A stretch of 34,977 nt of DNA from a bacterium (lineage in GTDB: Bacteria; Desulfobacterota; Deferrisomatia; Deferrisomatales; Deferrisomataceae). The position numbers were made by a program, and so were the translations under genes. Position 1 is the first letter of the stretch; every line of letters begins with the position of its first letter. Below the pieces are notes generated by a model. The model did not search any database and had not been told where the DNA came from. It was given only the letters and a program-made list of their open reading frames with translations. The DNA lies in assembly GCA_027021615.1 (NCBI GenBank), contig JALUTY010000067.1:1-34977 (forward strand), written 5' to 3'. Of this stretch, positions 17,973-32,877 are shown piece by piece.

Positions 17973-20744
17973 ATGAAAATCCGATCGCGCAGCAAGGGGC
18001 CGAGCCCGAGAGGGCCGGACCGCGCCCGAACCGACCGCAGGGGCTTCTTGAAGGCCGCGGCCACGGCCCTGGGGGCCGGCGCGGTGGCCGGCACCCCGGC
18101 CGGGTTTGTCCGCCGGGCCCGGGCGGGTGAGAAGAACCCCTTCCCGGATGCCAAGCAGGTCAAGACCGTGTGCACCCACTGCTCCGTCGGCTGCGGGGTG
18201 ATCGCCGAGGTGCAGAACGGGGTGTGGGTCCGCCAGGAGATGGATCTCACCCATCCCATCAGCCGGGGAGGGCTGTGCTGCAAGGGTGCGAGCCTCCGGG
18301 ACTTCGCCATGAGCGAGAAACGCCTCCGGTTCCCCCTGAAGCTCGTGGACGGCAGGTGGCAGAAGATCTCGTGGGAGAAGGCCCTGGACGAGATCGCGGA
18401 CCGGCTCCTCAAGATCCGAAAGGAGAGCGGCCCGGACAGCGTGTTCTGGATGGGCTCGGCCAAAATGTCCAACGAGCAGTGCTACCTGTTCCGGAAGATG
18501 GCCGCCATGTGGGGGACGAATAACGTGGATCACCAGGCCCGGGTTTGACACAGCACCACCGTCGCCGGTCTGGCGAACACGTGGGGCTACGGGGCCATGA
18601 CGAACCACCTGAACGACATCCGCAACGCCCGCGCCATCATCATGTTCGGGTCCAACGCGGCCGAGGCCCATCCCGTGGCCATGCAGCACATCCTGGCCGC
18701 CAAGGAGAAGAACGCGGCCCCCCTGATCGTGGTGGACCCGCGGTTCACCCGCACCGCGGCCAAGGCGGACGTGTACGTGCGGCTGCGCTCCGGCACCGAC
18801 GTGGCCCTGGTGATGGGCTTGGTGCGCGAGATCGTGAGGAACGGCTGGCACGACCGGGACTTCATCGACAAGCGCACCTTCGGGTTCGAAGAGGTCATGA
18901 AGGTGGCGGACCACTACACCCCGGAGGAGGTGCAGCGCATCACCGGCGTGGAGCCGGCGCTCCTGAAGCGGGTGGCCCGCCTTCTGGCCGACAACCGCCC
19001 CGGCACCCTGATCTGGTGCATGGGCGGCACCCAGCACTCCCACGGCAACAACATCACCCGCAGCTACTGCATTCTCCAGCTCGTGCTGGGAAACATGGGG
19101 AAGGCCGGGGGCGGGGCCAACGTGATCCGGGGCCACGACAACGTGCAGGGGGCCACGGACATGTGCATCCTGTCCAACAGCCTGCCCGGGTACTACGGCC
19201 TGTCGGACGGGGCCTTCAAGCACTGGGCCCAGGTGTGGAAGGTGGACTTCGAGTGGCTCAAGGGCCGCTTCGACCTGGCCTACGACAAGAAGCAGCACAA
19301 CAAGAAGGGCTTCACCATGGCCCGCTGGTACGAAGGCGTGCTCCAGCCCAAGGAGAAGATCGACCAGCGCGACAACATCCGGGCCTTGTTCTACTGGGGC
19401 ATCGCCATGGAGAGCCAGAGCCAGATGCACCGGGTCAAGAAGGCCCTGGAGAAGCTCGAGCTCCTGGTGCTGGTGGATCCTTTTGTGCCCAGCGCCGCGG
19501 TTGTGCCCGACCGGAAGAACGGCACGTACCTGTTGCCGGCTTCCACCCAGTTCGAGAACGAGGGGTCGGTCACGGCCACGGCCCGCCAGCTCCAGTGGCG
19601 TTACCCGGTGCTGGAGCCCCAGTACGACTCCCGACCGGACCACTGGATCATGTTCGAGCTCACCAAGCGCCTGGGGTTCGGCCAGGAGTTCGCCAAGAAC
19701 ATCAAGAAGTGGCCGGACGACTGCCTGGAGGAGTGGCGTAGTGGGCTCCAGACCATCGGGTACACCGGCCAAACCGTGGAGCGTTTGAAGCGTCAGCGGG
19801 ACAACGCCCACACCTTTGACCTGGTCACCCTCCGGGCCAACGGCGGCCCCTGCGACGGGGAGTATTACGGGCTGCCGTGGCCGTGCTGGACCACCGATCA
19901 CCCGGGCACCCCGATCCTGTACGACATGTCCAAGCCGGTGATGGAGGGAGGGCTTCCTTTCCGAGCCCGGTTCGGCACGGAGTATAAGGGCCGGCCCCTG
20001 TTGGCCGCCAAGGGGGTTACCATGCCCGGAAGCCGGGCAGATGGCGGCTACCCCGAGTTCAAGGGGGTGGTCAAGGGGACCAACTGGAAGACAGACCTCT
20101 CGGACAAGACTTTCCGGGCGGCGCTGTCCAAGGGCATGGCCCCCTTCGGCAATGCCCGGGCCCGCATGTACGTGTGGACCTTCCCGGACCCGGTTCCGAT
20201 CCACCGGGAGCCGATCCAGACACCCCGCCCCGACCTTCTGGCGGACTACCCCACGTACCCGGACAAGAAGCTCCAGTACCGGGTGGACACCGCCTTTGCG
20301 AGCGCCCAGAAGGCCGACACGAGCAAGAGCTACCCCCTCATCCTCACCACCGGGCGCATCGTGCAGCACATGGGTGGCGGCGCCGAGACCCGGGCCAACC
20401 GGTGGCTGTCGGAGCTCGCCCCCGAGATGTATGCCGAGGTTAACCCCCGCACGGCCAACGACTACGGCCTCATGGATGGCGACTGGATCTGGGTCGAAAG
20501 CCCCCAGAAGGGCCGCATCAAGGTCAAGGTGAAGGTCACCCTGCGGGTCGACCCTTACACGATCTTCCTACCCTACCATTTCGGCGGGGTGTTCGAGGGG
20601 GTGAGCCGGATCGACCGGTTCCCCGAGGGCACAGCGCCGTACGTGGTGGGAGAGTCGGGCAACGTGGTCACCAACTACGGCTACGACGTCGTGACCCAAA
20701 TGCAGGAGACCAAGACCGGCCTGTGCCAGATCCGGAAGGCTTAG
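17973..20744 (+). CDS. fdnG: Formate dehydrogenase, selenocysteine-containing alpha subunit (read through TGA at 18546-18548)
   Basis: A 923-residue molybdopterin/tungstopterin oxidoreductase that oxidises formate to CO2 in the periplasm. A Tat signal (DRRGFLKA, residues 21-28) is followed by a 4Fe-4S site C67, C70, C74, C102 (CTHCSVGC...GGLCCKG). An in-frame TGA at codon 192 falls in [14 protein letters not shown], the active-site selenocysteine position of FdnG/FdhF. Translation continues in the same frame with [13 protein letters not shown] and [10 protein letters not shown]. The C-terminal pterin-binding domain includes [23 protein letters not shown] and [18 protein letters not shown] bacterial SECIS hairpin follows the TGA. 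The gene has a GGGAGGTGG ribosome-binding site and is followed by the beta subunit after 10 nt. Plain annotation would split it into two genes. Confidence 0.96.
18546..18584 (+). promoter_or_regulatory. Bacterial SECIS element in fdnG
   Basis: TGA at 18546-18548 is followed, after 18 nt, by GGTCT at 18567-18571. The GGTCT is held in the loop of the perfect stem CGCC/GGCG (18563-18566 and 18572-18575), with CGT and ACG able to extend it. E. coli fdhF has the same arrangement, with 18 nt between UGA and the GGUCU apical loop that binds SelB. Confidence 0.9.
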
Positions 20745-29029: not shown

Positions 29030-31264
29030 TCAGAAGTAAGCCTCCCTCGGGAGCGTACGGATGGTGCTGTAGGCCTGCAAGGTCTTCTGGGCCTGCACCA
29101 GCAGGTTCTTCACCCGACCCAGGAGCTCCTCGGAGAACGCCAGGTTGTGGATGGGATTGCCCCGCTCGAACAGCTTCAGGTTCTTCTCCGCGTTGTTCAC
29201 CAGGTCCTGGGCGTCGTAGGTGTACTTGCCCTCACGCATGGCGGCCAGGATCTTGCGCTGGGTGTCCTGGAGCATGGTGCGCAGTGACTTGACCTCTTTC
29301 CGGAGCTCGTCGGCCTTCGCCTTCCACTGGTCCACCATGGCCCCGTAGGACTCGTCGCCGTCGTGGCACTCCACGCACGCGGCCTTGATGCCGTCCAGGG
29401 TGGTGGGCTCTCCCTCGACCACCTGAACGTGGCAGTCGCTGCACTCCACGGCGTCAGCCATGGGGTTCTTCTCGCCGCGCACATCGCAGCTCTTCTCGTC
29501 GCAGGCGTTCTGGCCGTTGTAGAGGTTGTGATTCTCGACATGACAGTCGCTGCACTCCACTGCGCCTTGGCCCTCGCCGTGGTGACAGTCGTTGCAGTTG
29601 CTGAGCCGGGTCTGGCCGTGATTCTCCCGTGGCGAGTGGCACTCCAAGCAGTCGAGCCCCTCGTCCTTCACATGGATGTCGTGGGGGAACGAGACGTTGC
29701 CGAACGGCACCGGTTTGGTCTCGATGCACTCCACGCACGAGTGGCACAGCTGGGTGCACCCCGTGGGGGGAGAGACCGGTTGGACCACATACCCTGGCTC
29801 GGCGGCGGCCTTCGCCTTCTCGGCACGCTCCTGCACGTCGGCAAGCACCTTGAGGGCGTAGTCCATGTTGTGCAGGCCCCGTCCCCGACGCACGAACGAC
29901 AGGTTTCGCTCCGCACCCTCGAGCAGGCCGGTCATCTGGGCCTTTACGTCGGCCCCCGCCTTGCGAACCTCCCCCCGTGCGTCCAGCAGGGCCTTCTCCG
30001 CCTTGTCCATCTCGCCGATCAGGAGCTTCTTCCAGTGCTTGGCCATGTCGTCATACCCGGCGCCGTGGCAATCGACACACGACTGGATCACCGCCTCGTA
30101 GTTGAGCCGAAGGGTCGAGGTCACGCCGGTGGACGTCTTCTTCACCGCTACATGACAGCTTCCGCAGTCGGCGTGGGCCAGGTACATGGGGTTGGGGGTC
30201 TGCGGCACGCCCTCGGCCCCCTTGCCCATGTACAGGTTCCGGGTGGCCTCGTGCTGGTCGAGGGTGTGGCACTTCAGACAGTCGGTGTCGTAGTGATACC
30301 CCTTGGTCCTGGGCCGCAGGGCGGCCTGGGCCATCTTCTCCAGCGCCTTGGGAGTCTCGTCGCCAGGCCGCACGATGTGGTGCTCGATCGCCGAGTGACA
30401 CCGGAGGCACTCCACCTTGTACTTGGTCACGTGGTTCCGGTGGATCTCCTCGCTGGCATACTCCCCGAACAGGATCCGGGGCTCCGAATGGCACTGCACA
30501 CAGGTGTTGTCCTTGAGGTGACCGTCCCCGAACACTACGTCAAAGTGGCACTGCTGGCATGCCACACCGTGGTCCAGGTACTTCTGGTGCACGAACGGCA
30601 TGTTCTCGTTGGCGTTGATGAACACCTTGGCACGCAGCTGAGCGTGGCACAGCTGGCATTCCCCCATCTCGGGGTTCTCCTCGCGGTTCATAAAGTGACA
30701 CACGAAGCAGGTGCTCTCGGTCACGGTGAGGTGCTCGCCCTGAACGATCTGGGAGTGACAGGTCACGCACCGCAGCTTCTTCCCCCGCCTCAGCTCCCCC
30801 AGATGGCTCCCGTGACTGAACCGCACGCCCTTGAAGGTGAGGGTCTTCTCACCCAGGTCCGCCCGGTTGTGGCACCCCTCGCGCAGGCAGCTGGCATCGC
30901 TGATCTGGGTGTGGGGCCGGCTGGGCTCCGTGCCCGTCAGCTTCATCCACAGATGCATCTGGGCCTTCCACTTGCCCCGAAGCTCGTTGAACAGGCCCGG
31001 CTCGAAGTGGCACTCGATACACGGCACGTCCCGGTGGCTCGACTCGGCCCAGGACTCGATGTAGGGCTGCATGTTATGGCACATGGCGCAGAACTTGGGG
31101 GAAGCCGAGGCCTTGAGCATCGCGAACAGACCCACCACGGCCACCACGGCCACCACCCCGAGGAACACGAGCATCCCTTTCCAGTGCCGACGCACCCCGA
31201 CGACGAGCACCCGCCCGAGGTCTCGAATAAAATCGATCATAAGAGAGAGCAGTTCCCGAATCAT
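29030..31264 (-). CDS. 18-haem NapC/NirT-type membrane-anchored cytochrome c
   Basis: A 744-residue cytochrome. One N-terminal transmembrane helix (about residues 31-50) is followed by a NapC/NirT-like start, FCAMCHNMQPY...SSH..VPCIECHFEPG. Sixteen CXXCH motifs are present, plus one CX4CH (CLREGCH) and one CX3CH (CTQLCH), suggesting 18 haems; CDEKSCD is a further pair lacking His. Two long helical regions, about residues 405-490 and 635-744, each contain a G..(L/I)HN...... segment (RGLHNMDYALKVL and NPIHNLAFSEELL) and look like a duplicated module. I infer a periplasmic electron conduit anchored in the inner membrane, with quinol as possible donor. The ATG at 31264 is preceded by GGAGGGAGG. 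It is divergent from the selenoprotein candidate. Confidence 0.93.
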   Translation of the reverse strand: MIRELLSLMIDFIRDLGRVLVVGVRRHWKGMLVFLGVVAVVAVVGLFAMLKASASPKFCAMCHNMQPYIESWAESSHRDVPCIECHFEPGLFNELRGKWKAQMHLWMKLTGTEPSRPHTQISDASCLREGCHNRADLGEKTLTFKGVRFSHGSHLGELRRGKKLRCVTCHSQIVQGEHLTVTESTCFVCHFMNREENPEMGECQLCHAQLRAKVFINANENMPFVHQKYLDHGVACQQCHFDVVFGDGHLKDNTCVQCHSEPRILFGEYASEEIHRNHVTKYKVECLRCHSAIEHHIVRPGDETPKALEKMAQAALRPRTKGYHYDTDCLKCHTLDQHEATRNLYMGKGAEGVPQTPNPMYLAHADCGSCHVAVKKTSTGVTSTLRLNYEAVIQSCVDCHGAGYDDMAKHWKKLLIGEMDKAEKALLDARGEVRKAGADVKAQMTGLLEGAERNLSFVRRGRGLHNMDYALKVLADVQERAEKAKAAAEPGYVVQPVSPPTGCTQLCHSCVECIETKPVPFGNVSFPHDIHVKDEGLDCLECHSPRENHGQTRLSNCNDCHHGEGQGAVECSDCHVENHNLYNGQNACDEKSCDVRGEKNPMADAVECSDCHVQVVEGEPTTLDGIKAACVECHDGDESYGAMVDQWKAKADELRKEVKSLRTMLQDTQRKILAAMREGKYTYDAQDLVNNAEKNLKLFERGNPIHNLAFSEELLGRVKNLLVQAQKTLQAYSTIRTLPREAYF

Positions 31265-31509: not shown

Positions 31510-31536
31510 CCATCAGCAGAGGAAAGGAGGAAACCG

Positions 31537-32877
31537 GTGCGACGAGCCGTTGCGATCCTTCTCCTGCTCCTGGCCGTTGCGGCGACGTCCGCGTGGGCGA
31601 CCCGCCCAGCGTTCGTCCTGCTGTACACGGTCGACGAGCGGGGAGAGGTCCTGCCCTGCGGGTGAAAGAAAAACCCGCGAGGCGGTCTGGCCAAGCGAGC
31701 AACCTATGTGGAGTCGGTGAGGAAGCAGAGCCCTGTCCTCTTCGTGAGCGCCGGAAACTGCCTGTTCAAACGGGAGCGGATCCCGGCCCGGAAGATCCCT
31801 CAGGCCCGTGAGATCGCCCGGCTCATGGTGGACGCCTACAACGAGATGGGGCTGGCGGCAATGGGAGTGGGAGCCTACGATCTGTCGCTGGGGGTGGACT
31901 TCCTGCTGGATCTGGCCCGACGGGCGCGGTTCCCTTTCGTCTGCGCGAATCTTACGGACCCCCACGGCACCCCCTACTTCCCCGCGTACCGCATCGTGGA
32001 GGCGGGGGGCCTGCGCGTAGCCCTGGTCGGCGTGATGGACAGCCGCCTCAAGCGCGGCCACATCCCGGGGGGCCGCAAGGTGGTCGTGGCGCCTCCGCTG
32101 GAAACAGTGGCTAGGGTGATCCCTCGGGTAGCCCAGGAACGGCCCGATCTGATCGTGGTGCTGACCGACATGAGCGAGCGGCGGCGGCGGCTGCTGGCCC
32201 GAAAAGGGCTACCCGTGGATCTGGTGGTGGGCACGTCCCGCCGCAATCAACTGTCGGTGCCGTTCCATCTGAAGGGAACCCTGATCGTCGCGCTGGATCG
32301 CAGGGGCAAGACCCTGGGCCGGGTGGACGTGATTCCGAAGAAGGGCGGAGGGTACGAGCTGAGGAACAGCTTCATCCCCCTCCTCCAGAAAAGGTACCCG
32401 GATCATCCCCGGGTGGGGAAGATGGTTCGAGAGACGCTGGCCCGGATCCGGTCCCTGCAGGCCCAGGCCATTCCCGAGGTGGCGGAAGGGGGGGAAGAGG
32501 GGTGCGGCCAGGACTACGTAGGCGCCGAGACGTGCCGTCGGTGTCACGGCAGACGTTATGCCCACTGGAAACACACCCCCCATGCCCGGGCCTACGAGAC
32601 GCTTCGGGCCAAAGGAAAGGAACTCGACACCGAGTGCCTGGCCTGCCACACGGTGGCGTTCGAGTGCAGCAACGGCAAACCCGACCGCCGGAGCATGGAG
32701 CAGTTTCCCGGCGTCCAGTGCGAGTCGTGCCACGGCCCCGGTTCGGCGCACGCCGCGTCCGAGGGCCGTACCCCGGTGGAGCCCGGCCTCGTGTGCGCCA
32801 AGTGCCACACCCGCGATCGGAGCGACACCGAGCGGATCGAAGATCGGGCCTCAGAAGCCTGCGCGGAGACCGACTAA
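31537..32877 (+). CDS. Candidate selenoprotein: degenerate metallophosphatase fused to tetrahaem cytochrome c (read through TGA at 31663-31665)
   Basis: A 446-residue periplasmic protein if TGA at codon 43 is read as selenocysteine. GTG at 31537 follows a perfect AAAGGAGG and starts a signal peptide (AVAILLLLLAVAATSAWA). Then YTVDERGEVLPCG-U-KKNPRGGLAKRATYVESVRKQSP continues in one frame; relatives of this UshA-like family have PCGC..NP.GGLA.R at this place, so Sec replaces the second Cys. The phosphatase-like part (to about residue 310) lacks the normal metal motifs: GNHD is GAYD and DAGD is SAGN. The C-terminal cytochrome c554-like part has CRRCH (333), CLACH (367), CESCH (395) and CAKCH (420). 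It is divergent from the 18-haem cytochrome, a likely partner. Confidence 0.85.
31663..31700 (+). promoter_or_regulatory. Candidate bacterial SECIS element
   Basis: The TGA at 31663-31665 is followed after exactly 18 nt by GGTCT (31684-31688), as in fdnG of this window and E. coli fdhF. The loop GGTCTG is closed by GGC/GCC (31681-31683 and 31690-31692), and below an internal loop CG (31678-31679) can pair with CG (31696-31697). The stem is shorter than that of fdnG. Confidence 0.7.

Follow-up and report, generated by a model that had tools for sequence, protein, structure and literature searches.

A UshA-like (seleno)protein with a putative Cys-Gly-Sec site and a tetrahaem domain, encoded next to a NapC/NirT-type cytochrome

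Introduction

UshA-like selenoproteins have been catalogued since at least 2008. The GOS survey of that year reported UshA-like sequences of COG0737 with a CxU motif, 76 of them with Sec and 92 with Cys, and the part of it available to us mentions neither a haem domain nor the gene neighbourhood (PMC2398784). The family is listed as a selenoprotein in two later reviews (PMC9312934 and PMC13188914). In NCBIfam it corresponds to NF041198 (UshA_like_PCGU, "UshA-like (seleno)protein"), whose model spans the UshA-like and the C-terminal haem regions. A separate entry, NF049981, holds UshA-like (seleno)protein family 2, for which the listed motif is CxxU and not CxU (PMC13188914). ExtKL multihaem (seleno)proteins (NF040886) form another family of Sec-bearing multihaem cytochromes, while SoxB thiosulfohydrolase and UshA 5'-nucleotidase are related in fold and sequence to the UshA-like part (residues about 27-300 of the protein studied here). 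No reaction was assigned to the UshA-like (seleno)protein family in the literature that we found.

We searched 395 sampled genomes of the phylum and detected the family in 116 of them at E 1e-40; 69 passed the NF041198 cut-off. It is the function of this family that is of interest, as the protein is widespread, has lost most metal ligands and has a conserved multihaem partner. Here we add to the catalogued family a codon-controlled SECIS test, the loss of most metal ligands with PCG-U/C and GG kept, and the linkage to a NapC-anchored neighbour.

Results

The UshA-like gene and its family

We analyzed a stretch of 34,977 nucleotides (the window; contig JALUTY010000067.1 of assembly GCA_027021615.1, forward strand) from a bacterium of the Deferrisomataceae. 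An earlier note, made from the sequence alone, had joined two frames of the window into one gene for a candidate undescribed selenoprotein with Sec on a conserved Cys column. Translation reproduced its coordinates: the two frames are in the same phase and are split only by a TGA, the single one in a frame of 446 codons (Table 1). The strong ribosome-binding site that it had placed upstream of the TGA was present as well, and so was a hydrophobic N-terminus where it had read a signal peptide. Residue 43 lies in the context PCGUKKNPRGGLAKR, and the four CXXCH motifs of the protein are at residues 333, 367, 395 and 420.

Table 1. Coordinates of the features described in this study, given as positions in the window.
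Feature	Position	Strand	Basis
Conserved divergent neighbour, NapC/NirT-type membrane-anchored cytochrome, 744 aa, 16 CXXCH and one CX3CH	29030..31264	-	Pfam PF03264 and others; motifs
Ribosome-binding site, purine-rich, GGAGG, before the GTG start	31521..31531	+	Direct sequence reading, AGGAAAGGAGG
UshA-like (seleno)protein, 446 aa, stop codon included; GTG start at 31537, TAA stop ending at 32877	31537..32877	+	TGA read as Sec in translation; NF041198, 335 bits against cut-off 275
N-terminal hydrophobic export signal (putative; end approximate)	31537..31602	+	Sequence VRRAVAILLLLLAVAATSAWA; composition
UshA/SoxB-like N-terminal domain, residues about 27-289, dimetal ligands mostly lost	31615..32403	+	NF041198, SoxB and UshA matches; column counts; Foldseek to 5'-nucleotidases
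TGA, predicted selenocysteine 43 in PCGU	31663..31665	+	Column with U 39, C 17, R 1 of 57 homologues
SECIS-like hairpin, CGC-GA-GGC / GGUCUG loop / GCC-AA-GCG	31676..31697	+	Fold; family-wide synonymous-codon control
C-terminal tetrahaem cytochrome c554-like domain, four CXXCH	32530..32811	+	Pfam PF13435; motif positions

The protein scored 335.3 bits against the curated NF041198 cut-off of 275. It shares with this family the PCGU motif, the UshA-like domain and the C-terminal haem region: PCGUKKNPRGGLA, that is PCG[U/C] before GGLA, was aligned with 56 other sequences, and profile positions 350-515 matched 32359-32829. Full-length members have a segment of about 80 residues between the two regions (profile 265-350), which is missing from the window protein; otherwise nothing essential differs. 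The likeness to other families was lower. NF049981 was matched only partially, over residues 28-109 (36 bits, cut-off 140), and ExtKL by haem similarity only (13 bits, cut-off 250). The SoxB family TIGR04486 gave 46.6 bits, with a cut-off of 550.

Further, we aligned column 43 in 57 homologues, the window included. The column held Sec (TGA) in 39 of them and Cys in 17, and a single sequence had Arg. Some of the 17 Cys calls depend on where the gaps are put in motifs like EGCGCR or PCSC. The TGA therefore does fall on a column that holds Cys in other members, as had been proposed. Most family members in the 395 phylum genomes carry one TGA, dozens in total. We are highly confident that the protein belongs to NF041198 and that, judged from sequence, selenocysteine is inserted at codon 43. 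The claim of an undescribed selenoprotein did not hold, since the family is found in NF041198 and in the publications cited above. The observation is a correct rediscovery of a known family, and the reading of Sec from the letters alone was confirmed as good.

Multihaem neighbours and proposed function

The divergent neighbour of the UshA-like gene encodes a multihaem cytochrome. Homologues of this cytochrome, with 40-95% identity, were detected near a window-type UshA-like gene in 11 other loci, and in each of these loci the neighbour was more conserved in identity than the UshA-like gene. Its best NCBIfam match was NrfH, far below the cut-off, so the cytochrome looks uncatalogued in NCBIfam. 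Seven of the 11 loci (L109-L112, L114, L115 and L117) contained also a DmsE-like cytochrome of about 611 aa with 9 CXXCH, for which we detected no close counterpart in the window. In several members of the UshA-like family, the examined part was free of haem motifs; therefore the haem link is not universal.

In the interpretation that we find most likely, which is based on the gene neighbourhood and the domain content, the protein is a Sec redox protein of the periplasm that is connected to the quinone pool. The exported protein would consist of a 5'-nucleotidase/SoxB-type domain with a Cys-Gly-Sec site, fused to the tetrahaem cytochrome domain. Electrons may run between quinol, the NapC-anchored multihaem cytochrome next door, the tetrahaem domain and the Sec/Cys site. 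This site would perform a redox reaction on a periplasmic substrate, perhaps one containing sulfur or selenium. We consider it fairly probable that the haems carry electrons between the NapC-type neighbour and this site for such a reaction. Alternatively, the CGU could bind a metal or selenium instead of being a catalytic redox centre, as a Cys-x-Sec pair next to haems might serve as a metal ligand. This seems unlikely to us, because the family column counts revealed no further conserved ligand set and because the family exchanges Sec with Cys, which is typical of redox selenoproteins.

The earlier note had called the protein metallophosphatase-like. This was right with regard to the fold, which was matched by UshA and SoxB and also by 5'-nucleotidase/SoxB structures when Foldseek was run with a low-confidence AlphaFold model (built from three sequences, mean pLDDT 52, below 50 at residues 31-49 and thus too poor to place Sec). 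Most of the metal ligands, however, are gone. In the 5'-nucleotidase family GD, GNHE, SH and GGHSH hold metal ligands. In the alignment with the Thermus 5'-nucleotidase, the window protein has GN for GD, GAYD for GNHE, TD for SH and GTSRR for GGHSH, and the residues aligned with the dimetal phosphoesterase ligands (DxH, GD, GNHE, H and GHxH) were mostly lost. Compared with SoxB and UshA, the protein has gained the PCGU loop and the haem domain. Column counts showed that the ligand positions are not conserved family-wide, while PCG-U/C and the subsequent GG are. The UshA-like selenoprotein is therefore unlikely to be a phosphoesterase. A functional 5'-nucleotidase or SoxB-like hydrolase, with Sec as an accessory, would agree with the fold matches but not with the replaced motifs or with the variable ligand columns, and we regard it as very improbable.

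PCGU lies in a loop immediately ahead of the GG for which the nucleotidase has an aligned GG. By sequence, the Cys-Gly-Sec site probably lies close to the entrance of the former active site. We propose, tentatively, that the fold has lost its dimetal site and become a Cys-Gly-Sec redox enzyme, which together with the conserved NapC-anchored cytochrome of about 16 haems would reduce or oxidize a sulfur or selenium compound in the periplasm in a quinol-linked manner. If this is true, the redox enzyme and the cytochrome constitute a respiratory module whose function has not been described before.

Decoding of the TGA codon

At codon 43, SelB and tRNA-Sec would decode UGA as selenocysteine, aided by a hairpin with a GGUCU loop just downstream. 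That the host uses Sec had been claimed before, and this agrees with a formate dehydrogenase gene of the window that has an in-frame TGA and with the Sec genes that we detected by profile search in the host genome: selA (583 bits, cut-off 268), selB (337 bits, cut-off 242) and selD (356 bits, cut-off 125). A selC gene for tRNA-Sec with anticodon UCA is encoded as well, so that all three genes whose absence had been named as a threat to the proposal (selA, selB and selC) are there. The formate dehydrogenase alpha chain (18003-20744, + strand) is an ordinary selenoprotein, with its TGA at 18546-18548 in a VUHS context. The selD gene (G000:C78:237566-238486, L128) has one in-frame TGA, as expected for Sec-containing SelD.

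GGTCT is located at 31684-31688, 18 nt past the TGA, and both this position and the short stem predicted earlier were reproduced. The window hairpin was predicted at -10.8 kcal/mol, with the stems CGC/GCG and GGC/GCC around GGUCUG. On its own it was not significant (MFE z-score of the local region, -1.0), and the same score gave a weak signal across the family. No match in the window was obtained with Rfam, and near the TGA its matches were at chance level only. The SECIS test that the earlier note had called for was done family-wide with a stem-specific control, in which the codons of each gene were resampled synonymously to separate RNA constraint from protein constraint. The Sec forms had 6.03 of 8 stem pairs, where the shuffles had 4.40, and 26 of the 36 contained GGTCT, where 3.5 were expected; these counts are not independent, as the sequences are related. 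Cys and other forms did not exceed their shuffles (4.22 against 4.12 stem pairs; GGTCT in 2 against 1.4 expected). Thus, the forms in which UGA has to be read retain the hairpin, and the others do not.

The TGA was retained in G001, G002 and G003, of which two belong to the genus and one to the family. It stands at codon 43 in two relatives whose amino-acid identity along the full frame is about 90%, and dN/dS downstream of it was about 0.17; with these, the joined frame is far beyond chance. If the TGA were a true stop, the downstream frame of 389 codons, which is long and open, would be translated separately from the GTG at 31708. That part would have no export signal, even though c-type haem motifs are present in it; homologues have the first strand and PCG ahead of the TGA, Cys homologues carry both parts as one frame, and the hairpin is retained in TGA forms only. 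The conserved TGA and the dN/dS value argue strongly against a plain stop too, and we find separate translation extremely improbable compared with selenocysteine insertion. A sequencing error at the TGA, which the earlier note had recognized as a danger, or a recent pseudogene could be suspected in a draft genome of 134 contigs, but the identical TGA in G001 (a single-contig genome), G002 and G003 together with dN/dS rules out the error and leaves this explanation a negligible chance.

Other family members

One member of the family, L075 (G113:C168:34-1512; 446 bits), has PSGR instead of PCGU and has lost both Cys and Sec; it is perhaps a decayed or repurposed copy. The genome that contains the window encodes also a second UshA-like selenoprotein paralogue with a TGA (C4:46515-47852; L122, G000:C4:38500-56000). 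We observed this paralogue in a different neighbourhood, with a response regulator, glnE and a LysM protein.
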